Source: Candidatus Micrarchaeaceae archaeon
Lineage (GTDB): Archaea > Micrarchaeota > Micrarchaeia > Micrarchaeales > Micrarchaeaceae
DNA length: 64,000 bases
Assembly: GCA_027310825.1 (NCBI GenBank)
Contig: DAIDAC010000002.1
Coordinates: 1 to 64,000, forward strand
Direction of reading: 5' to 3'
The notes beneath the pieces are model-generated. The model saw only the letters and a program-made list of their open reading frames with translations, made no database searches and was not told where the DNA came from. Of this stretch, positions 17,594 to 41,542 are shown piece after piece. Within the stretch, counting starts at the first letter, position 1. Every line of letters starts with the position of its first letter. The translations under genes were made by a program, and so were the position numbers.

Positions 17594-18148
17594 TTAGCAG
17601 CCCAGCGCTGCTGCGTTGGCTAGCGCAGCCTGTGCAGTGCCTCCTCCAATCAGACTGAATATGTACGGAGCAAGCAGTGCAATTATGACTCCTATCACTC
17701 CTCCCATTATCATTCCCATCGCATATCCTTGAAGCGTTCCCTTTGTCTGGCCAGGCATGATGTGAGAAGCTGCGTATATCGCGCCGCCTAGCAGCATAAG
17801 AAGGATTCCGATGACAAATATGGCTGTTGTGACTGTAGTGTATGTAGTGTACAAACTGCATATCACTGCATTTCCTGTGCTGGAAGATGCGCCGCCTCCA
17901 CTGCTCGGAGCTGCTGTTGTGCACACTCCTATGTCTCCCGGTGCACAGTTCCAGCAGCTTGAAGAGCCGGTCGCTGCACCGTCGTCTTGCCATTGGCCTG
18001 CGCCGTTTGTAAGTATGCACTGCACTCCGCTAAGCCATCCTGACGGGCATGCGCCTTGATTCGGTTCACACGGGCTTGCTGTTGCGATGTTGGTAAGCTG
18101 CATCAAAGGCACAAGAAGGAGCAAAATGTAAACTATCCTATAATTCAT
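17594..18148 (-). CDS. VirB2/TrbC-like two-helix pilin subunit with Cys-rich N-terminal extension (184 aa)
   Basis: A signal peptide (about residues 5-24) precedes a small Cys-rich exported region with about seven cysteines, then the pilin module. In the module, C97 leads into helix 1 (to about 124), followed by the short loop GGAIYAASHIMPGQTKG, helix 2 (about 141-166), and a final C184 as the last residue. The positively charged loop should face the cytoplasm and both ends the outside, the topology known for VirB2/TrbC/TraA pilins and archaeal CedA1-type pilins. It is transcribed divergently from the four-module gene, sharing a 163-bp promoter region. Confidence 0.7.
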   Translation of the reverse strand: MNYRIVYILLLLVPLMQLTNIATASPCEPNQGACPSGWLSGVQCILTNGAGQWQDDGAATGSSSCWNCAPGDIGVCTTAAPSSGGGASSSTGNAVICSLYTTYTTVTTAIFVIGILLMLLGGAIYAASHIMPGQTKGTLQGYAMGMIMGGVIGVIIALLAPYIFSLIGGGTAQAALANAAALGC

Positions 18149-18248
18149 CAGACCGCCGGCTATTTATTGCAAAGGACAAGCCAATTATTTAATGCTTTCT
18201 TATGCCTCTCGCACCGCCGATAAGCCATAGCAGCAGTGTACGCAAAGA

Positions 18249-18258
18249 TTTAAATATT
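18249..18258 (+). promoter_or_regulatory. TATA box of the tetra-pilin gene
   Basis: TTTAAATATT lies about 55-60 nt upstream of the ATG at 18312, allowing a leader of about 30 nt. A GGGTGAG at 18285-18291 is rather far from the ATG to act as its ribosome site. Confidence 0.45.
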
Positions 18259-18311
18259 AGGTTCAAGAAACGACTATTGCTCGTGGGTGAGCTACACTCG
18301 GTGTATAAAGC

Positions 18312-20210
18312 ATGCGCGACTACGCAAATGGAAGGCTACTGATACTGCTAGTGCCTATGCTTCTTGCAGTTCTTACTGGAATAACGCATTCCCAGCTTGC
18401 GGTGACAGGATCGCCTGGACCCGGCACTGTGGCTGACGGCACGGCTGTAACCTTTTCAATCTCTGGAGCATCACCAGGCACTGCCAACGTATACGTCAAC
18501 TTCCAGGGACAGGCGTCCATCAACGGCGCAATTCCATATGCATCATATGGCCCGCCACCAACATATACACAATATCCCTGCACTGCGACAATAGCTTCCG
18601 GCCAGTCGACAGGGCAGGCAACTTGCACGCTTGGCAATGAGGGTTTTGGATATCCAGTCACTTTTGATTATGCTGCGGTTGAAGGCAGCGGCTCTTCGCA
18701 GCAGGTTAGTGGCTGGCTTCCATACACAATCAACCCTGGAGCGACAAACCCAGTTCTCGAGGTCAACGGCGTTACCACTCTAATGACAATAAACAACAAT
18801 GCAGTAATGGGGTTCAACGTCTTTACATCAGGGCCAGATCCAATAATAGTAATATTCTCTTCTACACCAAACCAATTTGTATCTCCACGCGTGGTGGTCG
18901 CTGTTTGCAACGGAAATGCCGACTCAACAGGCAACTTTGCATGCACTACAAGCTTCGAATGGAGCACATCCGGACTGCCAAGCACATTCTATGCGCTTGC
19001 TGCCGACGATTCTTCAGGGCTTTACAGCAATCCTGTAGTCGTTTCTGTCAACGGAGCAGGCAGCACCTATCAAGGAATATGCTCGCTCTATTTCGCCGTC
19101 ACTACAGTAATATACATACTCGCGATAATGCTGCTACTTTTGGGAGGAACAATCTACGCAGGATCGCAGGTAATTCCTGGGCAGACACGCGGCCAAATGC
19201 AGGGCTACGCATTCGGATTTGTCCTCGCAGGAGTTATAGCCCTGATATTCGCAGGAGTATCGCCATTCATATTCCAGACATTAACTGGCAACACAGCCAG
19301 CAGCATAACCGGCCAATGCAACAGCGGAGGCATATTCAACGGCGCTACTGGTGGAGGAGTGCTGGCTCCAATCTGCAACATCTATTCTGTAGTCAGCATA
19401 GACGTATTCATACTTGCAATCGCGCTCATGATTCTCGGAGGTACAGTCTACGCCGGGTCGCAGATACTTCCAGGACAGACAAAGGGCCAACTGCAAGGTT
19501 ATGCATTCGCTCTGTTCTTGGGAGGAATAATCGCGCTCATAATTTCGCAGCTCGCTCCATTCATAATAAGCCTTGTGGCAAATCTTCCAGCAGGAGGAAT
19601 TTCTGCAGCATGCAGCAACGGTGTCACAGTATCATCTAGCAGCGTATACACCGCGATATGCAACATCTACACCGCAGTAACAACCATCGTCTACATACTT
19701 GCGCTCGCACTGCTGCTTTTGGGAGGAACCCTCTACGCCGGTGCAAACGTGCTTCCAAGCCAGACCCGCGGAGTCGTTCAGGGCTACGCATTCGGATTCA
19801 TACTCGGAGGACTTGGCGGAATAATAATCGCAAGCATAGCGCCTTACGTCTTGTCGCTTGTCACTCCTGCTGGAGCGCCAGCAATAAGCACTGTGTGCTC
19901 TGCCAACTACAACCCAACATCGGGATCAACATCGCCGGCTTTGCAGGCGATATGCCAAGTGTATTCAATACTCAACTCAGTAGTGTTCGTTCTTGCCCTC
20001 GCCCTAATGATAATAGGCGGCGCGCTCTACGCCGGAGCAAACGTGCTCCCAGGACAGACCCGCGGAGTGGTCCAGGGTTATGCAATGGGGCTTGTGCTCG
20101 GAGGGCTTGTCGGCGCGCTGATTGTGCTGATAGCTCCGTGGATACTGCAGACGATAATAGGCAGCAGCACATTCCAGACGGCGCTGTCTAGCTGCGCAAT
20201 CGTCTACTGA
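18312..20210 (+). CDS. Secreted protein with four tandem VirB2/TrbC-like pilin modules (632 aa)
   Basis: A signal peptide (about residues 8-28) leads into about 225 beta-rich exported residues (Ig-like). Four consecutive pilin modules follow, bounded by cysteines at 257/336, 355/434, 450/529 and 548/628, an almost constant 79-80-residue spacing. Each repeats the same plan: Cys, hydrophobic helix ending LGGxxYAG, loop PGQT(K/R)GxxQGYA (PSQTRG in module 3), second helix ending APxI. The inter-module linkers are short and Ser/Gly/Thr-rich. This looks like a covalently linked run of pilin subunits, or a membrane anchor with eight helices. Modules 3 and 4 are the most alike. It heads a series of pilin-module genes on the plus strand. 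Confidence 0.75.
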   Translation: MRDYANGRLLILLVPMLLAVLTGITHSQLAVTGSPGPGTVADGTAVTFSISGASPGTANVYVNFQGQASINGAIPYASYGPPPTYTQYPCTATIASGQSTGQATCTLGNEGFGYPVTFDYAAVEGSGSSQQVSGWLPYTINPGATNPVLEVNGVTTLMTINNNAVMGFNVFTSGPDPIIVIFSSTPNQFVSPRVVVAVCNGNADSTGNFACTTSFEWSTSGLPSTFYALAADDSSGLYSNPVVVSVNGAGSTYQGICSLYFAVTTVIYILAIMLLLLGGTIYAGSQVIPGQTRGQMQGYAFGFVLAGVIALIFAGVSPFIFQTLTGNTASSITGQCNSGGIFNGATGGGVLAPICNIYSVVSIDVFILAIALMILGGTVYAGSQILPGQTKGQLQGYAFALFLGGIIALIISQLAPFIISLVANLPAGGISAACSNGVTVSSSSVYTAICNIYTAVTTIVYILALALLLLGGTLYAGANVLPSQTRGVVQGYAFGFILGGLGGIIIASIAPYVLSLVTPAGAPAISTVCSANYNPTSGSTSPALQAICQVYSILNSVVFVLALALMIIGGALYAGANVLPGQTRGVVQGYAMGLVLGGLVGALIVLIAPWILQTIIGSSTFQTALSSCAIVY

Positions 20211-20232
20211 GCAGGCACACGCAGCGCACGCG

Positions 20233-20245
20233 ATATATATTTATA
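20233..20245 (+). promoter_or_regulatory. TATA box
   Basis: atatatatttata is centred about 46 nt upstream of the ATG at 20285, which is preceded by GAGGAG. It suggests that the ectodomain-pilin genes at 20.3-25.2 kb start from their own promoter. Confidence 0.5.
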
Positions 20246-20284
20246 GCACGATAGCACATAGCAATCTAATCGTGCAGTGAGGAG

Positions 20285-21715
20285 ATGGTTGGTGTTCATT
20301 TGTCGTCTAATCGCATGTTCATACGGATCCTTGTTCTTGTAATCACTCTGCTCCCCATCGCATCTTATTATGCTAGCGCAACTTCAACATCTTCGGGCAC
20401 CACGTCGGCAGCAGGGCCAACCCTTCTTCCTCCCGGGGCATCGGTGCCGATAAATGTCTTTGGCGTTCCCGAAGGCAATCCATCCGGAAGCGCATGCCCT
20501 GGCAGCAACTTCTGCCTTGCCATAGTTCCTCCGTCGTCGGCAGGAACGCAGTCGTGTCCGAGCGCCTCTATATTATCTACGCTTCCGACATGCAGCGCTT
20601 CGAACGCAGGCCAGACATGCATTGCTCCGAATTCGTGGGCGGTTCCTAAGTGCAGCTCCGCAATTTCCGGATATCCTAACGGCTACTGCGCCGCCCAATT
20701 TTTCACAGGCAACTATCTTTCAGGACAGAACTATGATTACAATGCATGCGGCTACTACGGCACAGGTGGCAGCTATGCATCTATGACGTCGATCGGCAAC
20801 CAGGTATTCACGCTCAATGGAATATCTGCGCCAGAGGCCAATTACCAGAGCAACCAAGGCAGCTACCTTCTATACATGTACACAAACCCTGTCCAATTCT
20901 CAGTAGGTGCGGCCCCGCAGATAATAAGCTATGTGGAGCCCTACTTCGCAAGCATAAAAGATCCTGTATACTCGTACATGTGCGAGCCAACCGAAACCTG
21001 CATACTGGAGTTCGCCAACGCGATAACCGGTTGCCTGAACCCTGCGACCACACCACTTCCTACCTGCACAAGCGGCACAGTCGGCCAAGCCTGCAGGGTC
21101 AACGATACTGGAAATCTCTACACTCAGGGCTTTAATTATCCCAACTTCTACCACTACATGCCGTCATACACGCAACAATTGGACAGTGCATACCTCACTC
21201 CGAGCAACACCTACGATATGTGTATGTATGACTACAGCTACAGGTTTGATCCATACCAGTACATTTCCGTAGACACGGGCACCATGGCCATAACGTGCAA
21301 CGCTCTCGGAGGCTGCACAACCAACGGAGCGAATCCGCCTCCACCGCCAGGCCAAGGGCTATGGGGAGTAGAAATACTTCCGTGCAGTTACTGCGGAATC
21401 ACAATCTCGGTAGGAAACTTCGGAGCCGGTGGCAGCATAACCCCATTCCAGAGCAGTGCATGCAACATCTACGGATTCGTGATCCTCATTTTCGGAGGGC
21501 TTGCGCTCGTGCTTCTTCTAACCGGGGCAATACTCTACATGGGGGCAAACACGCTAGGCCCGCACCAGGGAGGCCAGGTCAAGGGATACGCGACTGGATT
21601 GCTTCTTGTCGGCGGAATAGTCGCAGCCATAACAGGAATGGCGATATTCCTTATGTCGCTGACGCTGCAGCTGAGCCCTGTAGGCAGCATTGTTGCGTGC
21701 GCAGTAACTTTGTGA
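20285..21715 (+). CDS. Large exported ectodomain fused to a C-terminal pilin module (476 aa)
   Basis: A signal peptide (about residues 12-36) is followed by about 360 exported residues rich in Cys, Tyr, Pro, Ser and Asn, a disulfide-stabilised domain I cannot assign to a family. The final 84 residues are one pilin module. A Cys 79 residues before a second Cys brackets two helices separated by the loop ANTLGPHQGGQVKGYA. The loop keeps KGYA but replaces the usual PGQTKG with GPHQGGQ, the most divergent of the set. It could be a minor or tip subunit that displays an adhesin on a filament, or simply a membrane-anchored partner. The next gene starts 5 nt later. Confidence 0.65.
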   Translation: MVGVHLSSNRMFIRILVLVITLLPIASYYASATSTSSGTTSAAGPTLLPPGASVPINVFGVPEGNPSGSACPGSNFCLAIVPPSSAGTQSCPSASILSTLPTCSASNAGQTCIAPNSWAVPKCSSAISGYPNGYCAAQFFTGNYLSGQNYDYNACGYYGTGGSYASMTSIGNQVFTLNGISAPEANYQSNQGSYLLYMYTNPVQFSVGAAPQIISYVEPYFASIKDPVYSYMCEPTETCILEFANAITGCLNPATTPLPTCTSGTVGQACRVNDTGNLYTQGFNYPNFYHYMPSYTQQLDSAYLTPSNTYDMCMYDYSYRFDPYQYISVDTGTMAITCNALGGCTTNGANPPPPPGQGLWGVEILPCSYCGITISVGNFGAGGSITPFQSSACNIYGFVILIFGGLALVLLLTGAILYMGANTLGPHQGGQVKGYATGLLLVGGIVAAITGMAIFLMSLTLQLSPVGSIVACAVTL

Positions 21716-21719: not shown

Positions 21720-23138
21720 ATGAATTACACATTTACAAAAATATTTTTTGCATTCGTTTTTGCAGCAATGCTTCTGCACACAGCAGGCGCATCGTCAACT
21801 GCGCCGATCGTCACATTCAATGCAGTCATGCCATACGGTTCAACTAACGCGATCTGGGTCGTTCCTTCGCCGTCTTCAGACGGCTCCAATGTGGTCATCG
21901 ACGGATTCACGTACAACAGCGCAATGTCTGGCAGCACATTCTATGACGCATATCAACTGAGCCCAGGCCAGCACTCTGTCACCGGCTGCGACACAACATC
22001 AAGCACTTGCAATGGACCTATCACGCTATACGTAAACCAGCAAGGTGCAACTATAATCGTCGACAACCCGGTAATACTTCCAGGCACATACGACCACTTC
22101 GAGAACACTCCTTTCTGGGGCTTTTCAACAAGCTACACTGTATGGTGGAGCAACACCCCTAACTCGTGCCTTCCAAGCGTAGGCCCATGCCCTCAGAACG
22201 GAGCTAACTGCGAGCTCTTCAATTCGCAGTATCCGATCCAGGGTTCGTGCAGCATCTTTGGCATCAACCCTCAATGCGCATTCAACGGAGTCACAAACCC
22301 GCAGAATGAAGTTCCAGGCAACACATATGCACTGTGCATGTCTATGGACGGCGGAGCAGGATTCATAGCAAACACCTACACAGTTTCGACGACAGCGATC
22401 GGAAGTTCGCCGCTCTCGATAAACTCTGACAGCGGACTGATCATAGCAAAAGGGGCGAGCTTCACCACCAATCTCATCAGCGCTGATTCGCAGGACAACT
22501 ACCCAACAATGTTCTTCGAATTTGCAAACGGAGGCTACGACAATGGATATTCATGCGTTGACCCGACGACGCTTTCGCAGTCCGGATACAGCACCTGCGA
22601 CTCGCCGAATTCGATAACAACTACACAGTGTTTGCTCACCGCTCCGACTACATCCGGAACCCAGGCGACTCCGAACATACAATTATCGACGACAAATCTC
22701 GGCCCTGGAACATACATGCTCTGCGGCTACGAGCTCGGCACCAATCCTGTAGACGGAGGGCCTTACCCGACATTGTCCACAGCGTCTGCATTCACAGTCA
22801 AGTGCCTAACGAACCCGTGCGTCAACAATGGGCAGAGCCCGCCTGTCGCTACAAACGCAATCGACTACTGGTCGTGCGCCGGCTATGGAGATGCAACCAT
22901 TTTCATGCTTGTACTGGGCTTAGTCGTTTTTGTCCTCGGCGGAGCGCTGTTCGCAGGCTCAACTCTTCTGCCCGGGCAGACAAAAGGGGTAGCACAGGGC
23001 TACGCAATCGGATTGATAATTGCAGGAGTTGCGTCGTTCGCCCTAGCGGTAATAGCAATATGGGTGTTCACGGCAGTCAGCGGAGTGTCGATAGGGAGCA
23101 TACTCACAGGAACGCAATGCACACCGACGTTCACATAA
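21720..23138 (+). CDS. Large exported ectodomain fused to a C-terminal pilin module (472 aa)
   Basis: Same plan as its neighbours: signal peptide (about residues 7-25, ending TAGAS), about 355 residues of Cys-containing exported sequence of unknown fold, then a pilin module. The module's two cysteines are 81 residues apart, with helix 1 ending VLGGALFAGS, the loop LLPGQTKGVAQGYA, and helix 2. The ectodomain differs in sequence from those encoded before and after it, although all share Pro/Ser/Thr/Asn-rich composition and paired cysteines. It sits in a tight series (5 nt after one gene, 15-42 nt before the next), so co-expression is very likely. Confidence 0.65.
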   Translation: MNYTFTKIFFAFVFAAMLLHTAGASSTAPIVTFNAVMPYGSTNAIWVVPSPSSDGSNVVIDGFTYNSAMSGSTFYDAYQLSPGQHSVTGCDTTSSTCNGPITLYVNQQGATIIVDNPVILPGTYDHFENTPFWGFSTSYTVWWSNTPNSCLPSVGPCPQNGANCELFNSQYPIQGSCSIFGINPQCAFNGVTNPQNEVPGNTYALCMSMDGGAGFIANTYTVSTTAIGSSPLSINSDSGLIIAKGASFTTNLISADSQDNYPTMFFEFANGGYDNGYSCVDPTTLSQSGYSTCDSPNSITTTQCLLTAPTTSGTQATPNIQLSTTNLGPGTYMLCGYELGTNPVDGGPYPTLSTASAFTVKCLTNPCVNNGQSPPVATNAIDYWSCAGYGDATIFMLVLGLVVFVLGGALFAGSTLLPGQTKGVAQGYAIGLIIAGVASFALAVIAIWVFTAVSGVSIGSILTGTQCTPTFT

Positions 23139-23180
23139 GATTGATGATTTAATATGTTGCAACAAAACTGTGATATTGAG

Positions 23181-25187
23181 ATGAAGACAAACAAGGCATC
23201 GATATTTGCAGCCGCAGCAATGTTCGCCCTAGTTGCAATCGCAGTGCTTAGTATCGGCGTCAACATCGCAGGCGCGCAATATCCATACGGAGAGATAACC
23301 GCTTCGCCAGCAGAGATACTTCCTGGTGCTTCTGTGCAGGTGAACATGTCGTTCCCAAACCTTCAGCCATACTACGGTTGCAACTATGATTACTTCATGA
23401 TCAACCTGGCTGGGCCAGGGCAGGCATGTCCAGCTACTTCAAACTACCTTTACTACTGCGACGTGAAACAAACCGGCGGGCTCAACCAAGGAACTGTTCC
23501 GCCATTCGCATGTTCGTTCCCGACAACTTTTGTATACAATAATATCAACACCAAAACTGGCGGCGTGGCCAGCACATGGGTGATCAGCGGGCCAACATCG
23601 GGCTTCTCTCAATTCATGTACTACACAAACCACACGCTTCTTCAAGGAACATACACTCTATGCGCTTCTGTTGCAGAAGGATGCTTCAGCGGTTTCTACT
23701 ATTCTTACTATACATACAGCATAGGCAATGTGCCTATACAGGTGACAAACTACGATCCGCAGGGGCCAAGCTACGGAGTATCCGTTATAGCGTTCGGCTC
23801 AAACCCAACGTTAGCGATAATGGCTGCAAACCTGATAACAAACAGTCCGTACATCAACTACTACAACGCTACGGGCGATTACAATCCAAAAACCCAGATA
23901 GCCCCAGACCTAAACTGCGGCAGCAACGGAGGCCAATGCTTCATAGAAATTGGCGGTGGATCTTCTCAACAGGGATGCGTGTCGCCGATAAACAGCATCG
24001 GCGCAGTGCAGCTCCCCAACTGCGCCAGCTCCGGCCCTGTGACAACGCCATGCCTGTTACCGGGATCTACAAGCATCTATCAGTATAGCGCTCCGCTTCC
24101 ATCAGGATTAACTGGATCTTACTTCATGTGCGCCTACGACTACAATAGCCCAATAGTCTATCCTAACTCTTACAACCAAGAGTCAAGCCCGACAGAGCTG
24201 TCGACTTATCCACCTACTGCGCCAACGCTCCCGGGGGTGGCTGCACCTTTCTATGCTGCTGTAACTATGCAGTGCACAAGCGGCTCATGCACATCTGGCC
24301 CAAGCTTCCAAGCTCCTCAATCACGCGGAGCAGGAGGCAACCTCAACGGAGTAGGTCTTGTGTCTCTGAATCCGCCCGAAATAGGCCCAGGGCAGAATTC
24401 GATAGTCGACTTCAAGTCAGAGTTCATAAGCCCAGGCACAACGATCTCGCTTTACACTATTCCATTGCCGCCGACTGCGAAAGGATACCCCGCATACATA
24501 TCGCAGTGCACAGCGGCATCACTCAGCACATCAATGCCGGTTTGCAACGGCAAAAACTCCAACGGAAACGGCTGCTATGATGTCTTCGACGTGCAGCCAG
24601 GCGGCTCTGGCAACATAAACTGCGCTAACGACGCATCGCAGCCAAACCCGCCGGCAGGTGACAGCTGCACATGCCAAAACATTCCTATCGGAAGCACGCA
24701 GTTCACCGCAGGGGCACTTTGCGACATCAACAGCGCGAACGCAGAAACAACACAGACAATATCGACTACACCTGGCAACTATCTGGAATGCGGAGTTTAC
24801 ACACAACCGTTCCAGGTTCCGCAGATCGCAGCGCTCCAGCTTCTAACCGTTATCCCGAATCCGGTGGCAAACGGCGGACAAAGCCCTAATGTAGGGGTTG
24901 CGAACACGCTTCCATTGCAGGGAGAACTGTGCACAGTTTACCAGACAGTCATACCTGTTCTAATCATACTTGCGATCGCACTGCTTGTCATGGGAGGAGC
25001 GATATACTCTGCATCAAGCATATTCACAAGCCAGATCAGAGGCACGCTCCGTGGCTACGCCGTCGGAATGATACTGGGGGGCGCGGTAGGTCTGATTGTA
25101 ACTGCTATAATGTTCTACGTACTTTCTGTCACTACTGGCAACACAATTGCAGCAATAGTCGCGAACGTCAACATGGTATGCCCATGA
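23181..25187 (+). CDS. Large exported ectodomain fused to a C-terminal pilin module (about 668 aa)
   Basis: The start at 23181 (MKTNKAS) gives a clean signal peptide ending NIAGAQ; an upstream in-frame ATG at 23154 would add nine unlikely residues. About 560 exported residues with many cysteines and Gly/Pro/Tyr/Ser-rich stretches are followed by a pilin module. Its cysteines are 83 residues apart and its loop is SIFTSQIRGTLRGYA, so PGQTKG is changed to TSQIRG and QGYA to RGYA. It is the largest of three ectodomain-pilin fusions in a row and ends just before the promoter of a single pilin gene. Confidence 0.65.
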   Translation: MKTNKASIFAAAAMFALVAIAVLSIGVNIAGAQYPYGEITASPAEILPGASVQVNMSFPNLQPYYGCNYDYFMINLAGPGQACPATSNYLYYCDVKQTGGLNQGTVPPFACSFPTTFVYNNINTKTGGVASTWVISGPTSGFSQFMYYTNHTLLQGTYTLCASVAEGCFSGFYYSYYTYSIGNVPIQVTNYDPQGPSYGVSVIAFGSNPTLAIMAANLITNSPYINYYNATGDYNPKTQIAPDLNCGSNGGQCFIEIGGGSSQQGCVSPINSIGAVQLPNCASSGPVTTPCLLPGSTSIYQYSAPLPSGLTGSYFMCAYDYNSPIVYPNSYNQESSPTELSTYPPTAPTLPGVAAPFYAAVTMQCTSGSCTSGPSFQAPQSRGAGGNLNGVGLVSLNPPEIGPGQNSIVDFKSEFISPGTTISLYTIPLPPTAKGYPAYISQCTAASLSTSMPVCNGKNSNGNGCYDVFDVQPGGSGNINCANDASQPNPPAGDSCTCQNIPIGSTQFTAGALCDINSANAETTQTISTTPGNYLECGVYTQPFQVPQIAALQLLTVIPNPVANGGQSPNVGVANTLPLQGELCTVYQTVIPVLIILAIALLVMGGAIYSASSIFTSQIRGTLRGYAVGMILGGAVGLIVTAIMFYVLSVTTGNTIAAIVANVNMVCP

Positions 25188-25220
25188 CGTAAATACAGTG
25201 CGAAGATGTAGCATGGAAAG

Positions 25221-25232
25221 GTATATAAATAT
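25221..25232 (+). promoter_or_regulatory. TATA box of a single pilin gene
   Basis: gtatataaatat lies about 47 nt upstream of the ATG at 25273. It falls inside a longer open frame that begins at 25198, so that upstream start cannot be on this transcript. It sets the pilin gene apart as its own transcription unit. Confidence 0.6.
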
Positions 25233-25272
25233 AAACAATCGAAGCAATTCAGGCGAAAGAATAAGTGATAAA

Positions 25273-33049: not shown

Positions 33050-33062
33050 TAATGTGAAAAAT

Positions 33063-34232
33063 ATGCGCGCGAACAAAACTGCAAAGCTTCTTGCCCTTTC
33101 GGCGTTCATGTTAGCCGCGCTCATCAACATCTCAGGGGCGCAGCTCTGCGCAACAGGGCAGACTCCTTTCAGCGGGGCAGGATTCGCCAACGGCCAGCCA
33201 ACTCAGGCATATTATCAGCAGCAGCTGCAGAATTCGTGGACCAACAACTTCCCGATCGCGCTTGTCGCAGTGCTTGTAGCATTCGCCATCGCAACAATAA
33301 TTTTCATGATAGGCGCAGCATCGAAGAACGACACCCTGCGAAACTTCGGAATAGGGGAAATATACGAAGCGGTATCGACAGCGATCATCGTCGGCATGTT
33401 CATTATAATTGCAACTATCGCCCTCAATCTAAACATAAGCTTCTTGGGCGCTTCTTCAACAGCGCCGCAATCCAATCCTGCTCTTGTAGCTAACGCAGCT
33501 ACTGATCCATACTACTACGCATTCAATGGAATCTGCACGACAATAACCGACGTGCAGGGAGTCTACGACTCGCTACTCAACGGAGGAACCTACCAAGTCG
33601 ATTATCAAGGGCAATACTTCACAGCAGGAGGCAGTGCGCCTACGCAGGCGACTGGATACAAAGGAGTCATGGAGCTTCTCAGCATATCGCTATCGGTAAC
33701 ATACATGGACCTTCCGCTTCTCAACCAGATTGTGGCAGTTGTCTCTGACACAAGAAGCATATCGCTCAACTCGCAGGTTATCGTTCCGTCCATCGCAGTG
33801 GCGAGCTTCCTGATAGACGCGCTATATCTTTTGTGGAGCGAATACTACCTGATTTTCTTCTTCTCGATAGTCGGCCCGATATTCGTCGCAGTCGGTGCAA
33901 TCTTCAGGGCGATACTCCCGACAAGAGCATTCGGAGGAATGCTGATAGCCTTGGGCATAGGCCTGTTCATAGTCCTGCCTTCTATACTCGCATTCATGTA
34001 CACTCTCAACCCGTCGCCTTGCGCGGTTGGACTGTGCCCGTATCAGACACAATGGTACTCCGGAATACCTTTCAACAACATAGTGCAGGGATTCCTCAAC
34101 AGGCTCTGGCTCATAATATTATTCTATCCGCTGATGGCGATAGCGCTTACGTACGCATTCGTAACGCAGCTTGGCAACTTCATAGGCGCATCTTCGCAGA
34201 TGGGCGGAAGAATAAGGACAGGATTCATCTGA
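33063..34232 (+). CDS. VirB6/CedA-like polytopic membrane protein, paralogue 6 of 6 (389 aa)
   Basis: The ATG at 33063 (MRANKTAK) gives a good signal peptide ending NISGAQ. An upstream TTG in frame (33042) lies inside the previous gene and is unlikely; GTG at 33054 is possible. It keeps the acidic loop motif as GIGEIYEAVSTAI and the basic loop as GAIFRAILPTRAFGGMLIALGIG. The exported loop is about 150 residues with a Cys, and another Cys pair lies after the basic loop. Last gene of the six-member series, followed by a new promoter at about 34250. Confidence 0.6.
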   Translation: MRANKTAKLLALSAFMLAALINISGAQLCATGQTPFSGAGFANGQPTQAYYQQQLQNSWTNNFPIALVAVLVAFAIATIIFMIGAASKNDTLRNFGIGEIYEAVSTAIIVGMFIIIATIALNLNISFLGASSTAPQSNPALVANAATDPYYYAFNGICTTITDVQGVYDSLLNGGTYQVDYQGQYFTAGGSAPTQATGYKGVMELLSISLSVTYMDLPLLNQIVAVVSDTRSISLNSQVIVPSIAVASFLIDALYLLWSEYYLIFFFSIVGPIFVAVGAIFRAILPTRAFGGMLIALGIGLFIVLPSILAFMYTLNPSPCAVGLCPYQTQWYSGIPFNNIVQGFLNRLWLIILFYPLMAIALTYAFVTQLGNFIGASSQMGGRIRTGFI

Positions 34233-34249: not shown

Positions 34250-34300
34250 ACTTAAAAGGCAACTGCCATAACTATTAGGCGATTAGTAGCGGTGCGTGGA
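34250..34300 (+). promoter_or_regulatory. Promoter and ribosome site of the ATPase operon
   Basis: TATA-like acttaaaagg (34250-34259) is followed about 40 nt later by GGTGCG (34291-34296) directly before the ATG at 34300. It marks a separate transcription unit for the VirB4-like genes. Confidence 0.5.
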
Positions 34301-35133
34301 TGGACAAGAAGCTCTTCGTATTTCTGGGATTCCTCGGAACTTCGATAGGCATAGTGCTAATCGACATATCTGTTCCAGGAGTCATAATCGGCCCTACAAT
34401 AAAGATAATTCTGCTCATACTCGCGCTTGTATTCGACGGGCTTGCATATTCATCGCGATACTATTCATATCTCCTTGTGCCGATTTTCAAGCAGAGGAAG
34501 CGCAGCATAGTTCTGAGCAGCGAGGATCCGTACTGGCTCTCTCCAACTGGCGACGCGATCGTCCACAAAGAGGGCGAAACCTTTATATCTACGGTTTATG
34601 TCAAGATTCCTCTCTACAGATCAGCCACAGAGATGAGCAATGACGAGAAACTCGAATTCACAAAACAGATCAGCAGGCTTGTCAGCCTAAGCAGGGACCC
34701 AATCCGATTCACTACACAGGTCCACATGATGAACAAAGACGATTACATAAGAAAGCTACGCGACACTCTCTCCGAAGTGGAAAACGAAGAGGCTTCTCTT
34801 CTTGCAAGGAATGCAAAGCAGAACGAGATAGACAGAGTTCGAGGAAAAGCGAGCATGTGGAGGCACATGCTAGACAGCGTCAGCAAAGGAATATCTCTTG
34901 AAATGGTTCTCTATGCTTCTGTGTCTGCACTGGGGGGACAGGAGTTCGAGGCGATAAGCGGCGCTCAGCAGAGGGCGCGAGAGCTAATATCAGGAATCGC
35001 AGCCGTGTTCGGAGTAACGCCTAGCATTTTGACAGGCGACGCAGTCCAGCGTGCAGTGGAACCTGAGTTCTTGATACCATATTCAACAGTAAGCGAGCAG
35101 CTGTCGAAGACGCTGCAGGAACAGGTGACTTGA
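34300..35133 (+). CDS. VirB3-like helices fused to a VirB4/TraC N-terminal-like domain (277 aa)
   Basis: Two membrane helices near the N-terminus (about residues 5-25 and 31-63) precede a cytoplasmic domain of about 200 residues. From about residue 80 it reads like the N-terminal domain of VirB4/TraC/CagE ATPases: DAIVHKEGETFISTVYVKIPL, then a helix with EKLEFTKQISRLVS, then the long charged helix of residues 150-190. The ATPase motifs themselves are absent here and encoded two genes downstream. It therefore looks like a split VirB4 whose N-terminal half has been joined to VirB3/PrgI-type membrane helices. The assignment is from sequence pattern only. The stop overlaps the next start (TGATG). 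Confidence 0.6.
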   Translation: MDKKLFVFLGFLGTSIGIVLIDISVPGVIIGPTIKIILLILALVFDGLAYSSRYYSYLLVPIFKQRKRSIVLSSEDPYWLSPTGDAIVHKEGETFISTVYVKIPLYRSATEMSNDEKLEFTKQISRLVSLSRDPIRFTTQVHMMNKDDYIRKLRDTLSEVENEEASLLARNAKQNEIDRVRGKASMWRHMLDSVSKGISLEMVLYASVSALGGQEFEAISGAQQRARELISGIAAVFGVTPSILTGDAVQRAVEPEFLIPYSTVSEQLSKTLQEQVT

Positions 35134-35969
35134 TGCTTGATGAAGAGAGCATAGTGTATTTGGTTTTCACGCTCATCGTGCCGATTCTGATATTTGTCAA
35201 TCTTAGCAACATCGGCAGCGGGCTGACAAGCTACTTCGCAATGCTGCTCATAGCCCTCGAATTCGCATTCCTTCTTATCATGGTGTTCGCTGACTTCGTG
35301 CTGTTCCCGCTCATCATGGGAATGCTTGGAATAACATTCCAGCCTGCGCGCAACTACAAGATAACAAAGGGCCAAGACGCAGTGATAAAGAATGTAAGCG
35401 GGCTTTACTATGCAACCGGCTACGTCACTGCAAACCTTTTCGCATACGTATTCAAGGCAGAGAGGATCGGCGAAGGAGAAGAGCTCCGCCAGATACAAGC
35501 GCCAGAGGCTTGGGAGAAATCGGTCATGAGCATAAACTTCCCGTTCAAGTTCAACGTGATATCTGCAGGGCTTGACATACAAACAGTTCGAGACGAACTA
35601 GAAGGCAAGCGATCGTTCCAGGAGTTCCAGTTATCGAGAGTGATGCAGAGCGGCAACCCCAACGAATCAATAATCGCAGACATACAGAGAAAGATCAACG
35701 TCATACAGGCGAAGATAGACAGGATTTCACAGGAAGAAAAGCCGATCGCGACTTTGATGTATGCGGAGACGACAGCAGTAGGGGTTTCAGAAAAAGCTGC
35801 GATGGATGCACTCGCTGCCCAGATAAAGCAGCTGCAGATCGCGCTAGGAGTGCTTGACGTCCAGATAACAAGGATAGTCGGGCGTGAGCTATATACGATA
35901 TTCAAGTTCGGATATTCGCTTCCGACAAGCTATCAAGACATAGCTACATTCTTCGACAGCCAAAAGTGA
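35133..35969 (+). CDS. Second VirB3/VirB4-N-like membrane protein (278 aa)
   Basis: Two N-terminal helices (about residues 8-28 and 32-62) and a cytoplasmic domain parallel the preceding gene product, but sequence similarity is faint. The central part (MSINFPFKFNVISAGLDIQTVRDEL) resembles the beta-alpha segment of VirB4 N-domains. The last 120 residues form long charged helices, probably a coiled coil (IADIQRKINVIQAKIDRI). The ATG at 35133 is preferred over an upstream TTG. Encoded directly before the ATPase (4-nt gap), it most likely docks that ATPase to the membrane. Confidence 0.55.
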   Translation: MLDEESIVYLVFTLIVPILIFVNLSNIGSGLTSYFAMLLIALEFAFLLIMVFADFVLFPLIMGMLGITFQPARNYKITKGQDAVIKNVSGLYYATGYVTANLFAYVFKAERIGEGEELRQIQAPEAWEKSVMSINFPFKFNVISAGLDIQTVRDELEGKRSFQEFQLSRVMQSGNPNESIIADIQRKINVIQAKIDRISQEEKPIATLMYAETTAVGVSEKAAMDALAAQIKQLQIALGVLDVQITRIVGRELYTIFKFGYSLPTSYQDIATFFDSQK

Positions 35970-35973: not shown

Positions 35974-37485
35974 ATGACGCTACTGCGATTCCAGCATATA
36001 ATGAGCAACGAAATATCAAAGAGGGCGTTCTTCTCAAGGCCTCCGGAGCCTCCGGCAGAAGTTCTTATAAACGACCCGCTCCAGTCGCTGTACATAGGAA
36101 CAACAAAAATATTCAGAGTTCCTTTCTCGTGGACTTTCGCCAACCTTACAAACCCGCACATATCTGTAGTCGGAATAACAGGAGCAGGAAAATCATACTT
36201 CGTTAAAACCCTTCTGCTGAGAGCAAGCTACATCTGGAACACTAACGCAGTCATCATCGACTGGGCAGGAGAATACAAGGCATGGGTGAAGCAGACGGGC
36301 GGAGTGGTGATCTCGTTCGCAAAGGGAGACTACCTGAACATTATGGATCTGTCTGGAATGAAGCCGCTAGACAGGGTAAAGCAGATCATGAACTCGTTCG
36401 CGATTCTCACCGACATAGGAAGCTACCCTGAGCAGAGACGCCTGACAGAAGAGGCTATAGAGCAGGCTTATGTGAACTCCGGTCTCATTCTTTCGGAAAA
36501 GCCGACAAAGAAGAGCGTAGAATCACCGACATTGAAGATGGTAATTTCGCTTTTGGAGGAAAAGCTGCAGGAAGGAACGTACGAATACCCTGCAGAACTC
36601 GAGAATGCAATATACAGATTGAGGCAGTTCGCAAGGGAAGGCGAAGACTACTTTGCAAGGCGCAGCACAATCGACCTCGGCAAGCTCGCAGAATCCGGAT
36701 TGGTCGACATAGACCTGTCAGGGCTTCCTGACGAAAGGTTCAGGGCGCTCGGCGCACTGTTCATACTCCAGACGCTGAAGGAAAAAATGCGTGCAGAAGG
36801 ATTCAGCGAAACGAAGGGGCTCAAAGCGATCATCGTTCTAGACGAAGCTTGGAAAGTGGCGAGCGACGACAAAAGCGATGCGATCACAATAGTCAGAGAG
36901 GGAAGAAAGTATCAGTTCGGGCTAATCGTCGCTTCGCAGAACCCGACAGACATAAACGAGGCGATATTCTCAAACGTAGGAACATCTTTCATACTTAGAA
37001 TCAAGTTCGAGAAATTCCTTAACTATTTGCAGGGTTCTCTCAACTTCTCTGACTTCATAAGGAGCGAGATAAGCAAGTTCGGAGTAGGACAGGCAGCAGT
37101 GGAAATGGCATTCCAGACAGCGATACGATTCCCAGAAACGTTCATACTCGAAAGAATACAGGGAGAAGAGCCGCTCTACGTCTACACAATCGACCTTACA
37201 GACGTTCTTACCCAGAGCGAACTTTCAGCCGGGCTTATGGTACGCGACTATCAGTTCGAGAAAGAAGAGCTGCGAAACAAATTCATAGACTTCAACATAA
37301 GCAGTGAAGGGGTTGACGAGCTGTTCCAGAGGATGGATGCGCAGGCGCGAACGATCAAGGTCATCGACTTCATACAGTCTCTCAGGGAGAAAGACGTCCA
37401 ATCATCGATCATAATCGCATTCCTCAAGAGTTTAAGCCTTGACGATACAATAATAACAAGAATAGTGCAGCGAGCAGGCGCATAA
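35974..37485 (+). CDS. VirB4/HerA-type ATPase (CedB-like)
   Basis: A cytoplasmic motor ATPase (503 aa) with no membrane helix. Walker A is GITGAGKS at residues 67-74, Walker B is IIVLDEAW at 287-294, the sensor/Gln motif is ASQNPTD at 321-327, and a REGRKYQFG block at 309-317 provides the arginine-finger region of the HerA-FtsK superfamily. It lacks the N-terminal VirB4 domain, which is encoded by the two preceding genes. In conjugation and in Sulfolobales DNA import (CedB), such enzymes power pilus assembly or DNA movement. An internal ATG at 36001 is an alternative start. This is the only such motor ATPase in the window. No VirD4 coupling protein or relaxase accompanies it. Confidence 0.85.
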   Translation: MTLLRFQHIMSNEISKRAFFSRPPEPPAEVLINDPLQSLYIGTTKIFRVPFSWTFANLTNPHISVVGITGAGKSYFVKTLLLRASYIWNTNAVIIDWAGEYKAWVKQTGGVVISFAKGDYLNIMDLSGMKPLDRVKQIMNSFAILTDIGSYPEQRRLTEEAIEQAYVNSGLILSEKPTKKSVESPTLKMVISLLEEKLQEGTYEYPAELENAIYRLRQFAREGEDYFARRSTIDLGKLAESGLVDIDLSGLPDERFRALGALFILQTLKEKMRAEGFSETKGLKAIIVLDEAWKVASDDKSDAITIVREGRKYQFGLIVASQNPTDINEAIFSNVGTSFILRIKFEKFLNYLQGSLNFSDFIRSEISKFGVGQAAVEMAFQTAIRFPETFILERIQGEEPLYVYTIDLTDVLTQSELSAGLMVRDYQFEKEELRNKFIDFNISSEGVDELFQRMDAQARTIKVIDFIQSLREKDVQSSIIIAFLKSLSLDDTIITRIVQRAGA

Positions 37486-37486: not shown

Positions 37487-37807
37487 ATGGCACAGACACC
37501 GGCAAAATTAGAAACATTCACAATTAGCAGACAGGAACTTCGAAGAGTGCTGATCGCATTCGGCCTAGGAGAGAAAAACATAGAAGGCCTTCTCTCGTCG
37601 CTAGAAAAGGCGCACAGGCACGTCAACGTCGTGGCGTTTTCCGCAATGCTCGAGAAGACAGGGCTGCAGCGCGAGAAGATAGTCAACGTGCTTCGAAGGG
37701 TGGGAATCGACGACATTTCGATACAGGACATACTTGACACGGCAGACGAGCAGAAGATTCTCGCCGAATCAGGAAGGATATACGAAGTCAACATAGACTT
37801 CAATTGA
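37487..37807 (+). CDS. Small soluble protein after the ATPase (106 aa)
   Basis: Not recognised. It is helical, with charged patches: SRQELRRVLIAFGLGEKNIEGLLSSLEK and a similar later stretch starting EKIVNVLRRVGIDDISIQDIL, which look like two related helix-turn-helix-like repeats of about 40 residues. It starts 1 nt after the ATPase stop, so it is surely in the same operon. The C-terminal helices of the ATPase (DVQSSIIIAFLKSLSLDDTIITRI) show the same helical pattern, hinting that this protein may be an adaptor related to that ATPase tail. Confidence 0.6.
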   Translation: MAQTPAKLETFTISRQELRRVLIAFGLGEKNIEGLLSSLEKAHRHVNVVAFSAMLEKTGLQREKIVNVLRRVGIDDISIQDILDTADEQKILAESGRIYEVNIDFN

Positions 37808-37819
37808 ATCAGTGGTTGA

Positions 37820-38176
37820 ATGAAGGAAACAAGATGCATAATCTGCGGCTCAAAGAAGAACGGTCTTGAAGTAGAAGAAGACCATGTGATAAAGACGATA
37901 AGATGGTTCAAGAAGAACGTCACACACAACGAAAAGGGCGCCCGCCTGATTGTGTGCAAGGAATGCTATCCCAGATATTCGAAAAACCGTCGTTCATACG
38001 AGCGGCGCCAGCTGCTTTATGTCGGCCTTGGCCTCATCATGGCAATACTTCTTGTCGCTGCCGGGCAGAGCTTTATAGCAATACTCTACGGGGCTGTAAT
38101 AGTTGTCTTCATGTACGTGCTTTCCCTTCTCACATACATGCCAAAAGTGCTTATTCCTGCCAGCAAAAAGCGCTGA
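37820..38176 (+). CDS. Zinc-ribbon protein with two membrane helices (118 aa)
   Basis: CxxC at residues 6-9 (CIICG) and a second CxxxxC-type site near 47-50 (CKEC) form a probable zinc knuckle or HNH-like treble clef at the N-terminus (note EEDHVIKTIRWF between them). Two hydrophobic helices follow (about residues 68-85 and 88-106), then a basic tail. Function unknown. It is on the same strand 12 nt after the preceding gene and may be a membrane-bound accessory to the apparatus. Confidence 0.55.
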   Translation: MKETRCIICGSKKNGLEVEEDHVIKTIRWFKKNVTHNEKGARLIVCKECYPRYSKNRRSYERRQLLYVGLGLIMAILLVAAGQSFIAILYGAVIVVFMYVLSLLTYMPKVLIPASKKR

Positions 38177-38237: not shown

Positions 38238-38972
38238 GTGAGGTTGGCGGAGGCGATTGTAGAGATAGAGCCGAATGTCGAGAGCATAAGGGTAAAGGGC
38301 AGCCTTTTGGGCTCTTTTGACGTCATGGCAACAAGGCTCTCAGCACTGCAGATGTTCACAATAAAAGCCGCTACGAACAGCCTTACAGTTGTGCGTGTAG
38401 AAAGCAGAAACATACAGAAGAAGCCGTTCCTTTTCATGGTATTCTCGTTCGCCCGCGACGGAATAGACGTAAACTACTCAATCGGACCAGACTCTAGCCC
38501 AAAGATAAGGAGGCTCTACGTCCTAAAGAACCTGGTCGCAATGCTTTCCCTAATTACTGATGTGTACGAAGCAGACAGTACAGACCTTCTTCAAAGCCTG
38601 GATTCAGCTATCGATGACGTGTTGGGATCGCTGTCGCAGAACTACAGCACCCTTTTCAACAACTACGATTCTCTTTTCAACAAATACCGCGAGCTAAAGA
38701 GGCTCAACATAGAGCTCACAAGGTCGAACAAGAACCTTTCGGTTCAGGCAAGCATGCTAGCCAACGAGAACAACGACATAAAGGAACAATTGAAGAAGCT
38801 TGAAACTTATTCCGATGATTCGATGATGTCGATGATAGAGGAATGGATAGAGACGCACGACGGCACAATAGACATAAACGAATTTTCCAACACCTACAAG
38901 ATAACGCCGCCAAGGGTCGAGCAGATGCTTAACAAGATGGTCTCCCTCGGCTATATAGAGCTAAAGGGCTGA
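38238..38972 (+). CDS. Coiled-coil protein with C-terminal winged helix (244 aa)
   Basis: No known family. The N-terminal 100 residues are a compact alpha/beta domain. Residues about 105-190 are a long coiled coil (repeated LNIELTRSNKNLS-type heptads), and residues about 195-244 look like a winged helix-turn-helix (ITPPRVEQMLNKMVSLGYIEL). No membrane segments. The start is uncertain: GTG 38238, or TTG 38244. It is followed after 5 nt by a 45-aa basic ORF and then the 806-aa membrane protein, whose cytoplasmic part also ends in a winged-helix-like segment (VERMLDSMVERGDLI). Confidence 0.6.
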   Translation: MRLAEAIVEIEPNVESIRVKGSLLGSFDVMATRLSALQMFTIKAATNSLTVVRVESRNIQKKPFLFMVFSFARDGIDVNYSIGPDSSPKIRRLYVLKNLVAMLSLITDVYEADSTDLLQSLDSAIDDVLGSLSQNYSTLFNNYDSLFNKYRELKRLNIELTRSNKNLSVQASMLANENNDIKEQLKKLETYSDDSMMSMIEEWIETHDGTIDINEFSNTYKITPPRVEQMLNKMVSLGYIELKG

Positions 38973-38977
38973 GCGCT

Positions 38978-39115
38978 GTGCGATACTCGATAAGGATAAA
39001 CAAGAAGGTGAAGAACGTAAAGGTCTTCAGAGTAGTCAAGAAGACCTCTGGAAACGTCAACCTGCTGACAAAGTTCTTCATAAAGATTTTCGCAGGAAAG
39101 AAGAAAGAGGAGTGA
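38978..39115 (+). CDS. Small very basic protein (45 aa)
   Basis: GTG to TGA, starting MRYSIRINKK and ending in a KKKEE tail, with about 15 Lys/Arg residues among 45. It fits snugly between genes (5 nt after one stop, 6 nt before the next start) on the same strand, which argues that it is real. Possibly amphipathic in the middle (LLTKFFIKIF). Function unknown; nucleic-acid or membrane-surface binding is plausible. Confidence 0.5.
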   Translation: MRYSIRINKKVKNVKVFRVVKKTSGNVNLLTKFFIKIFAGKKKEE

Positions 39116-39121
39116 TGGTCA

Positions 39122-41542
39122 ATGGTAGATGAACAACGACAGGCCGCACCAGCTCCGAAAAAGGGTCTGCTGCAAAGCAAGGCCATAAAGCTTCTGCTGC
39201 TTTTTGCAATCATAATAGTTGCAGGCATAGCAGTGACGTCGATATATGTCACGTCGACGCTTTCACGGCTCAACACCCAGCAAGCGCAGCTGTTGGCGGT
39301 AAAGCCGACCGCAAGCATAACGCTCATATCGCAGAACCTTCTTTCTTACAACAACGGCACCCAGATTGTTCCGTTCGAATACATAGGATACAACGAGAAG
39401 AATGTATCGCAGGTAAGCATGGTAGTTTCGTTGTATCAATCGAACCCGCAGATAGGGCACATCTACGTTCTCAACTGGTCAGATCAGTGTTACAGGTGCG
39501 GCAATGTAAATGCTGTTCTCTCTTCGCTCAACAAGAACCTTTCAAAATACGGAATCCAGAATTCGAGCCAAACGGTTCAAGAGGTGTCGAAGAACGCGCT
39601 TCCGTTCTTGGGCAGGGGATCTGTACTTGTAATTCTAAACGGACTGCTTCCTGACTACATGCTCAACGACTACGGCGGCACAAGCACGACGCTAATACAA
39701 TACCTGCTCAACAACGGAGTCACCATACTCTATGCAGGAGGGCCGTTCACCACAGTGGTCGGAAGCCAGAACCAGCCGCAGCCATATTCTGCGCAGGCGC
39801 TTCCATACTATCTTCAGACTGGCCAATTCCCTGCACCTGCAAACAGGACATCAGTGTTTTTCGATAACGCAACTTACTACGCATTTTATTCCGGACGCAC
39901 TTATGGCTCAGCAGTGTACACCTATGCAGCCAACGCAAGCATAGTAGCGTTCACAAGATTCCCGGACCAATGGAAAACTCCCGGAGAGCTAGGATACGAC
40001 CTTGCGACCGCGATATCCCTGCAATTCTGGAACGCACCGTACGCACAGGGAAGGGCATTTTTCACTCCTCCACAAACAAGCACAAGCTATGCGAACGTTA
40101 TCGGAGTGGTCCTGTCTCCGATATCACCGGCCAGAAAAACTTCATTGCAAAATACAGTCCCATTGCTTAACAGCCTGTACGGCAAGATCGCCACAATAAT
40201 ATCGAGCCAAGCAGGCAACACCGTCTACCTAAATACGTATTTCACGCCAAGATACTCGCTCAACGGAACGTTCGCGATGCCTGTCAGCATACAGCCTGCG
40301 CAGCAGTTCAATGCAACGATAGCAATACCGATATCAAGCGCGCAGGTGTTGGAGCCGCACATAACAATACTTACAAGCAATTTGACTACAGTGACTCAGT
40401 ATCCACCGCTCTTCGCAAAGTCTGTCTCGCCTCCGAACTACACATTCATAAGGCAATTCGCATTCACGCTAGGCCAAGGTTCATACATTGCGCTTGTGCA
40501 AGGAAGCTCTAACCAGCAATACGCAGCATCGTACTTCCAGGCGCCTCCGATAACGGTAAGCGTTTCAAGCGTCAACGTCAACGCAAGTACGATTGTGTTC
40601 TCTGTACTTGCCGGGCAGATTCCACTGAGCAATGTGACTGCAAAGGTTTCCTACAACGGGAAGTACAGGCAATTGATCAACGTCTCGAACGGCCAGATAT
40701 CATACACGCTTCCGAACAGCACATCGATACCCGCAGGCAAGCTCAACTTCACAATAGGCATGCTGTTCAACAACTACTCTGTGCAATACGTATACACAGC
40801 ACCGCCGGTCGTGCTCAACAAGCAATACGTAGAGTTCATAATTGCGCTTGTCGTCGTAATACTTGAGATAAGCCTTGTCAAGGCTCCAACAAGAGACGAG
40901 TTCTACATAGACGTTCCATCTATGCCTAGGCCGCAGTCAACCAAGATAAAGATCAAGGAGAACGAATTGCTTGGAGTTTTCGACAAGCTGAACATCTATT
41001 ACAAATGGAGGTATATGCCGCTGTCGAAGACAGAATTCAGGTTCGGGGTGTCGAAATACGTCCACTACAACGCCATGTCCGTAATGATGACATACAAGAA
41101 TGTCGAGAGGATGCTCGACTCCATGGTGGAGCGTGGAGACCTGATCGCAGCAGACGACCTATACGCGCCAAAGGCGTGGATAGACCAGAGCAAGCACGAC
41201 ATAGAATACTTGGCAACTTTCAAGAAGCTGCGAGTCTACCTTGTAGGAAAGGTCGATCAGTTCACCGACATGGACAAGAGCGAGAACGCAGACATAGTAG
41301 CGACTATGCACAACGAAAGGGCTTACATAATAATATACTCGAAGACCAGCAAATACCAGAAAATACCGATAGCAAGGAGCGGAAAGACCTATCTTGCTTT
41401 CATAAACTCAGACAAGCTCGACGAATTCAAGAAGAGGCTCTACGATTCTACATCGAGAGAATCAGAGGAATTGAAAATGTACATATCGTCCGGCACGCTA
41501 CAGTTGATGGATTCTGACGCTCCGGAAGGACTGTTCACATAA
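39122..41542 (+). CDS. Two-helix membrane protein with large ectodomain and cytoplasmic winged-helix-like tail (806 aa)
   Basis: The N-terminal helix (residues about 23-46) and a second helix (about 567-588) enclose a 520-residue exported region. The first part of that region has an alpha/beta, Rossmann-like look (LVILNGLLPDYM, then LLNNGVTILYAGGPF). The later part is beta-sandwich-like with many sequons. Two cysteines (CYRC) lie near residue 122. The last 218 residues are cytoplasmic, with a winged-helix-like segment and a mixed alpha/beta remainder. This inside-outside arrangement suits sensing or anchoring, and by position it belongs to the pilus/secretion cluster. The family is not recognised. 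Confidence 0.6.
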   Translation: MVDEQRQAAPAPKKGLLQSKAIKLLLLFAIIIVAGIAVTSIYVTSTLSRLNTQQAQLLAVKPTASITLISQNLLSYNNGTQIVPFEYIGYNEKNVSQVSMVVSLYQSNPQIGHIYVLNWSDQCYRCGNVNAVLSSLNKNLSKYGIQNSSQTVQEVSKNALPFLGRGSVLVILNGLLPDYMLNDYGGTSTTLIQYLLNNGVTILYAGGPFTTVVGSQNQPQPYSAQALPYYLQTGQFPAPANRTSVFFDNATYYAFYSGRTYGSAVYTYAANASIVAFTRFPDQWKTPGELGYDLATAISLQFWNAPYAQGRAFFTPPQTSTSYANVIGVVLSPISPARKTSLQNTVPLLNSLYGKIATIISSQAGNTVYLNTYFTPRYSLNGTFAMPVSIQPAQQFNATIAIPISSAQVLEPHITILTSNLTTVTQYPPLFAKSVSPPNYTFIRQFAFTLGQGSYIALVQGSSNQQYAASYFQAPPITVSVSSVNVNASTIVFSVLAGQIPLSNVTAKVSYNGKYRQLINVSNGQISYTLPNSTSIPAGKLNFTIGMLFNNYSVQYVYTAPPVVLNKQYVEFIIALVVVILEISLVKAPTRDEFYIDVPSMPRPQSTKIKIKENELLGVFDKLNIYYKWRYMPLSKTEFRFGVSKYVHYNAMSVMMTYKNVERMLDSMVERGDLIAADDLYAPKAWIDQSKHDIEYLATFKKLRVYLVGKVDQFTDMDKSENADIVATMHNERAYIIIYSKTSKYQKIPIARSGKTYLAFINSDKLDEFKKRLYDSTSRESEELKMYISSGTLQLMDSDAPEGLFT

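Follow-up and report, generated by a model that had tools for sequence, protein, structure and literature searches.

A resident gene cluster derived from a type IV secretion system, with an ordered hexad of putative channel paralogues, in Micrarchaeota

How DPANN archaea attach to their hosts and acquire material is a long-standing question, and the locus described here raises the more specific question of whether part of this task falls to a machine derived from a type IV secretion system (T4SS). The locus lies at positions 17594-41542 of a 64,000-nucleotide stretch of DNA from a Candidatus Micrarchaeaceae archaeon (hereafter the window), which is the stretch 1-64000 of a contig of 161 kb; the genome measures 975 kb and is 92% complete. 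A first-pass annotation, made from the letters alone, had proposed a resident T4SS- or Ced-like apparatus enlarged by paralogy. The explanation that best accounts for all results, to which we assign a probability of about two in three, is a resident T4SS-derived envelope machine with a hetero-oligomeric channel of B6 proteins, a motor tied to it by the proteins N1 and N2, and a pilin filament directed to the host, serving ATP-driven passage. The cluster is thus a strong candidate for the means by which Micrarchaeota cells connect to their hosts. Searches of the open literature (preprints excluded) for type IV secretion, VirB4, VirB6 or conjugation found no published description of such a system in Micrarchaeota or DPANN archaea, and no report of an ordered, invariant VirB6-type hexad.

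The cluster comprises 20 open reading frames (ORFs) in the order pilA1, pil4x, adhP1-3, pilA2, m243, B6a-f, N1, N2, ATPase, s106, z118, cc244 and S806 (Table 1). As had been noted before, nearly all genes share one strand: only pilA1 lies on the minus strand (19/20 ORFs on the plus strand), and the frames between 26618 and 38176 mostly overlap or are separated by short gaps. A convergent gene for Topo VI-B adjoins the S806 end. Among the 80 best named relatives of the ATPase, the titles were nearly all Candidatus Micrarchaeota, with a few others such as Marsarchaeota, and Ca. Micrarchaeum sp. A_DKE and ARM-1 were represented among them by complete genomes; the DPANN character of the genome was thereby borne out.

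The ATPase was recognized by Pfam as DUF87/HerA and VirB4-type (5e-17), AAA_10 (8.4e-14) and TraG P-loop (2.8e-10), matched the VirB4-like PDB entry 4ag5 (7.3e-9), aligned to the motor domain of R388 TrwK and carries intact Walker A and Walker B motifs. It is therefore a VirB4-type motor. Because its alignment to TrwK starts only at about TrwK residue 420, it was regarded as a motor from which the VirB4 N-domain is absent. The proteins N1 and N2, each with two N-terminal transmembrane (TM) helices, are homologous to each other (profile-profile probability 95.8). At the sequence level no VirB4 N-domain match was obtained for the N proteins in Pfam or in the comparison with TrwK, and a PDB sequence search gave nothing useful. 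When the AlphaFold model of N2 (pLDDT 87.2) was compared by Foldseek with 350,542 PDB chains, TrwK/VirB4 came out on top (prob 0.99, TMq 0.41, E 0.14). In BFVD, the top matches were gp155 of phage G (E 1.7e-3) and a phage protein annotated as "component of type IV transporter system" (prob 1.00, E 0.01), so that a VirB4 N-domain fold was found for N2 in two independent libraries. Given the start of the TrwK alignment and this fold match, the missing N-domain is most likely supplied by N1 and N2. The small protein s106, conserved beside the ATPase as a free-standing gene, is a possible regulator or adaptor.

The six proteins B6a-f, described earlier as tandem polytopic proteins with shared motifs, are indeed mutually homologous (profile-profile probability 95.9-99.5; none for unrelated multi-TM controls) and share a motif around G-x-x-x-R-x-F-x-x-T-R-x-x-G-G. 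For the B6e model (pLDDT 84.8), the best-probability match in the same PDB set was found in 8rtd, an entry for the R388 T4SS, and this match was weak (prob 0.82, E 0.16, TMq 0.30); 7o3v_J was matched as well. TrwI/VirB6 is present in both entries, and the matched chains were read as TrwI because their modelled lengths (268 and 260 residues) exceed that of TrwJ (226 residues). Structure prediction, which the first-pass annotation had named as a check, thus upheld the VirB4 N-domain and left the VirB6 fold with a weak match. A further link is the N-terminal hairpin of B6b, which is homologous to the pilins of the cluster (probability 93.4, E 2.6e-7, with a clean pilin profile); the clean hidden Markov model matched 11 B6b orthologues (best 1.2e-8) and no control. 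A higher probability of 97.4 was discarded, as the pilin profile behind it held three B6b segments. Homology between a pilin and the N-terminus of a channel protein has been reported for CedA/CedA1 and for VirB6/VirB2 (PMC9905601). We therefore consider B6a-f to be putative VirB6 counterparts on the basis of the weak fold match, the B6b-pilin homology and the genomic context rather than of sequence. No PilC/TadC fold appeared among the matches listed for B6e, and the ATPase is of the HerA/VirB4 type, not of the GspE family; the cluster was accordingly not placed with archaeal type IV pili or archaella.

Nine VirB2/TrbC-type pilin modules are encoded in the cluster, one each in pilA1, pilA2 and adhP1-3 and four in pil4x. 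In all of them two helices form a hairpin whose loop follows a consensus close to P-G-Q-T-[KR]-G-x-x-Q-G-Y. In Pfam, individual members of this family reached T4SS_pilin (best 3.9e-6) and TrbC/VirB2 (best 1.2e-5), in both cases below the curated cut-offs, and a whole-genome match at a second locus reached E 1.8e-4; the VirB2/TrbC assignment, already made in the first-pass annotation, was retained on these grounds. The pilin profile found no match in PDB. The four-module tandem of pil4x had no multi-module counterpart in the relatives' loci examined.

The second locus lies on contig C2 of the same genome (L049:9463-13395) and holds one pilin, one B6-type protein, one N protein and one ATPase together with a small protein, x214. 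The whole cassette (L049:9463-14003) reads pilin-B6-N-ATPase-x214-x203 and is conserved in several relatives; the locus as first delimited is syntenic in A_DKE, G020, G021, G023 and G007. G096 has a single B6 locus, where the ATPase, N and pilin genes are found too. Because this minimal cassette holds one of each, pilin, B6, N and ATPase are the core parts, and in the window the hexad fills the B6 slot. No relation of x214 to cc244 was detectable. In ARM-1, the B6 frame of the second cassette contains two TAG stops.

The most unusual property of the cluster is the constancy of the hexad. B6 arrays were counted by stop-to-stop frames, since the raw counts of 13-19 per genome are matches inflated by split domains and not proteins; in the source genome, for example, nine matches correspond to seven B6 proteins. 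Within the taxonomic order to which the source genome belongs, every complete array, 41 in all and each from a different genome, reads a-b-c-d-e-f, and shorter arrays were cut by a contig end or by the end of the retrieved stretch. At three loci of this order N1 has no adjacent B6, and the frames of one locus in a second collection are split. In 13 other families (19 genomes), each of the 30 arrays had exactly six genes. These genomes usually carry two hexads, mostly apart from the N-ATPase-z118-cc244-S806 module. Loss of a hexad member was seen in none of the arrays examined. With order-specific profiles, the same gene order ranked near the top of the 720 permutations (median rank 4; Fisher p 1e-30, with related arrays treated as independent). 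In a tree of 146 proteins gene position changed 7 times, as against at least 83 in shuffles, and for the other families only it changed 5 times, the minimum possible, as against at least 46. For the genes in third and sixth place, the two hexads found in other families fell largely into separate clades. From these position changes and separate clades, it is concluded on phylogenetic grounds that the ordered hexad arose once, before the families diversified, and was later duplicated as a whole.

Such invariance is what would be expected if the six proteins belonged to one complex in which each has a fixed place, and it therefore suggests a channel that is an obligate hetero-oligomer and perhaps a hetero-hexamer. 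A fuller version can be put forward only tentatively, and we think it somewhat more likely to fail than to hold: an obligate hetero-hexameric T4SS-type channel with one copy per paralogue would have originated once before the phylum diversified and later been duplicated intact, so that in many lineages a single ATPase module would serve either of two channels as a host-contact apparatus. Known VirB6 channels are reported to be homo-oligomers, and a hetero-hexamer, if true, would change the understanding of channel symmetry and gating in T4SSs. In hexads of other families (L139, L143, L160 and others) members have very large extra regions of up to 1129 residues, reminiscent of Rickettsia RvhB6, and the arrays often adjoin proteins of more than 1000 residues with one or two TM helices.

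The distribution of these genes was examined across the phylum. N1 was present in 55 of 60 relatives (38/39 good genomes) and the N family in 260 of 295 genomes of the phylum (88/96 good genomes). In the diverse sets tested, B6 occurred in 36/36 genomes with N and in 0/8 without it, and the pilin in 16/16 and 0/8, respectively; the three families thus follow one common pattern of presence and absence. Genomes G075, G086, G089, G092, G093, G100, G114 and G124, from several families of the class, have no N, B6 or pilin, though most are about 90% complete. About 50 genomes of two families keep the order m243-B6a-b-c-d-e-f-N1-N2-ATPase-s106-z118-cc244-S806-Topo VI-B with one-to-one orthology, and the protein distances track those of Topo VI-B (Mantel r 0.60-0.71; 0/500 permutations as high). 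The genes are therefore not scattered in related genomes, an outcome on which the earlier proposal had been made to depend, and the cluster is a resident, chromosomal, vertically inherited T4SS-derived apparatus of Micrarchaeota. That it might instead be a conjugative element integrated in the genome, active or as a remnant, is suggested by its T4SS-like gene content; against this stand the conserved synteny and orthology and the agreement with Topo VI-B, and the machinery of mobility was not found either. PF02534, the coupling protein, was over the cut-off nowhere in the genome, and no relaxase or integrase was found among the window proteins scanned against Pfam (no genome-wide relaxase search was made), in line with what had been remarked from the sequence. 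IMG/VR held no relative and plasmid matches were only distant. A mobile or viral origin was consequently rejected, and a conjugative element is regarded as very improbable. The machine is thus a T4SS derivative that an archaeal phylum has long possessed and passed on vertically, rather than something acquired recently.

Among known systems, the cluster would by analogy work most like the Ced and Ted systems and the T4SS of Patescibacteria. Ced (Sulfolobales) and Ted (Thermoproteales) are also chromosomal archaeal T4SS derivatives with a VirB2-like pilin, a VirB6-like channel, a VirB4-type ATPase and no relaxase, and the same combination of pilin, (putative VirB6-like) channel and VirB4-type ATPase in an archaeal chromosome was found in both the window cluster and the minimal cassette. 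Their pilin is likewise homologous to the channel N-terminus (PMC9905601), and in Ced the functions of the VirB4 N-domain are divided between CedB and CedD (PMC11868833). Compared by published descriptions, the Micrarchaeota cluster differs in its six putative channel paralogues in fixed order, in the N-domain on separate membrane proteins, in the soluble ATPase, in pilins fused to ectodomains and in being hosted by DPANN genomes. The Patescibacteria T4SS is resident and relaxase-less in ultrasmall, host-dependent cells, with arrays of VirB2-like pilins and a stand-alone homologue of the VirB4 N-domain, TrsD, beside VirB4 (PMC12102498); it is bacterial, however, an ordered VirB6 hexad has not been reported for it, and the Micrarchaeota N proteins are two paralogues with two TM helices. 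The rvh system of Rickettsiales is also resident, with the VirB6 paralogues RvhB6a-e, some having very large extra regions, and a duplicated VirB4 (PMC2653234); it differs in that its VirB6 genes number five and that RvhB8-B11 and RvhD4 make it a more complete T4SS of the Gram-negative kind, and it belongs to an unrelated lineage. R388 provides fold matches, TrwK for N2 and (weakly) TrwI for B6e, and its TrwK motor domain aligns to the ATPase; in contrast, its VirB6 is a homopentamer, its VirB4 a single chain, and it has an outer-membrane complex, VirB11, a coupling protein and a relaxase.

In the mechanism proposed here, B6a-f would occupy the VirB6 position, one of each, as a hetero-oligomeric and possibly hexameric membrane channel, to which N1 and N2 would tie the ATPase ring. 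Starting at the channel, the pilins may polymerise outward as a surface filament or tip, which would cross the S-layer and reach another cell nearby, probably the host; the ectodomain-bearing pilins would be its tip or adhesive subunits, and ATP hydrolysis would drive both filament assembly and the passage of macromolecules. The function would then lie in host contact, macromolecule transfer or DNA uptake. A host-contact role is favoured because filaments or nanotubes have been seen at the host contacts of cultured carriers (PMC8975820, PMC11329633) and because T4SS genes are essential for epibiotic growth of a Patescibacterium (PMC12102498). A barrel of 21 nm, to which the ARM-1 authors gave no identity, has been seen in the ARM-1 envelope. 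Uptake from the partner seems somewhat likelier than delivery, in view of the host dependence of the cells and the negative search for a coupling protein. The cluster occurs in most of a DPANN phylum, including the two host co-culture strains Ca. Micrarchaeum harzensis A_DKE and ARM-1, and so offers defined genes for localisation at the sites where host and archaeon meet.

Several points weigh against this interpretation. Those who described the ARM-1 co-culture attributed its nanotubes to the host. No sequence match of B6 to VirB6/TrwI, to Pfam TrbL/VirB6 or to PDB was obtained, and the Foldseek E-values against PDB are above 0.1. The hexads of other families and of ARM-1 lie away from the ATPase module (in ARM-1 the hexad is kept at about 75 kb from this module and 100 kb from N1-N2), so that the operon context is not universal. 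The missing sequence matches, the weak Foldseek statistics and the detached hexads would also fit a different reading, in which the B6 proteins belong to a membrane family particular to this lineage, serve as transporters or organise the envelope, and merely neighbour a pilin/ATPase system. This is doubtful, since B6 follows the presence and absence of N and pilin, takes the channel position in the minimal cassette, is homologous to the pilins through B6b and had its best-probability fold match, among all the PDB chains compared, in a T4SS.

With a T4SS-type channel retained as the preferred interpretation, the question becomes what it carries. A Ced/Ted-type importer dedicated to the DNA of neighbours, for repair or nucleotide supply, would use the same triad of pilin, polytopic channel and VirB4-type ATPase, and the searches above for a relaxase and a coupling protein were negative; the VirB4 N-domain is likewise split in CedB/CedD, and CedE represents a second CedA (PMC11868833). 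ComEC was absent from all 19 Micrarchaeota tested, and another DNA channel could be needed, but genomes without the system are also without ComEC, giving no sign of replacement, and ComEC as an alternative channel was therefore set aside as uninformative. Ced and Ted, moreover, work with one or two channel proteins, the adjoining Topo VI-B gene is housekeeping, and nothing indicates DNA as the substrate, so that dedicated DNA import appears unlikely. Equally unlikely in our estimate is effector or contact-dependent secretion acting on the host, as by the T4SSs of Patescibacteria or Rickettsia. The host-dependent lineage, the variable ectodomains fused to pilins, the large extra regions of some hexad members, as in RvhB6 (PMC2653234), and the need for T4SS genes in Patescibacteria epibiosis (PMC12102498) speak for it, while most protein-secreting T4SSs use a VirD4-type coupling protein, for which the genome gave no match over the cut-off, and no candidate effectors came up, though no search was aimed at them.

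Table 1 Features of the cluster and a further pilin gene in the window
Feature	Coordinates	Strand	Description and evidence
pilA1	17594..18148	-	Signal peptide and VirB2/TrbC-like two-helix pilin; T4SS_pilin E 0.11; pilin profile 3.0e-32 (profile contains window modules)
pil4x	18312..20210	+	Ectodomain, then four tandem pilin modules in a single ORF; sequence, pilin profile
adhP1	20285..21715	+	Large ectodomain and one C-terminal pilin module; sequence, pilin profile
adhP2	21720..23138	+	Large ectodomain and one C-terminal pilin module; sequence, pilin profile
adhP3	23154..25187	+	Large ectodomain and one C-terminal pilin module; sequence, pilin profile
pilA2	25198..25686	+	Stand-alone pilin; sequence, Pfam scan, pilin profile
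m243	25820..26551	+	6-TM protein, no family assigned; kept at hexad head (synteny)
B6a	26618..27919	+	Hexad member 1, VirB6-like polytopic; profile-profile, array comparison
B6b	27928..29160	+	Hexad member 2; N-terminal hairpin homologous to pilins
B6c	29184..30740	+	Hexad member 3; profile-profile, arrays, tree
B6d	30750..31922	+	Hexad member 4; profile-profile, arrays, tree
B6e	31919..33049	+	Hexad member 5; model (pLDDT 84.8) weakly matching the fold of R388 VirB6
B6f	33042..34232	+	Hexad member 6; profile-profile, arrays, tree
N1	34300..35133	+	Two N-terminal TM helices and VirB4 N-domain-like region; N2 paralogue
N2	35130..35969	+	Two TM helices and VirB4 N-domain fold (AlphaFold/Foldseek)
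ATPase	35974..37485	+	503 residues, stand-alone VirB4/HerA type without VirB4 N-domain
s106	37487..37807	+	Paralogue of the C-terminal ~80 residues of the ATPase; profile-profile probability 97.1; synteny
z118	37820..38176	+	Zinc-finger-like, two TM helices; conserved
cc244	38238..38972	+	Coiled coil and winged-helix-like C-terminus; conserved
S806	39122..41542	+	Ectodomain, TM helix, cytoplasmic C-terminal domain; conserved cluster end
Further pilin	56900..57343	+	Outside 17594-41542; pilin-profile match at 57077-57331, E 9.0e-33

Elsewhere in the window, positions 50-3220 encode an S-layer protein (S_layer_C 7.2e-20), and in G020 a pilin-bearing gene adjoins the counterpart of the S-layer gene group. 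A single ORF at 45964-46953 combines a NUDIX domain (2.5e-16) with a uracil-DNA glycosylase domain (5e-34).

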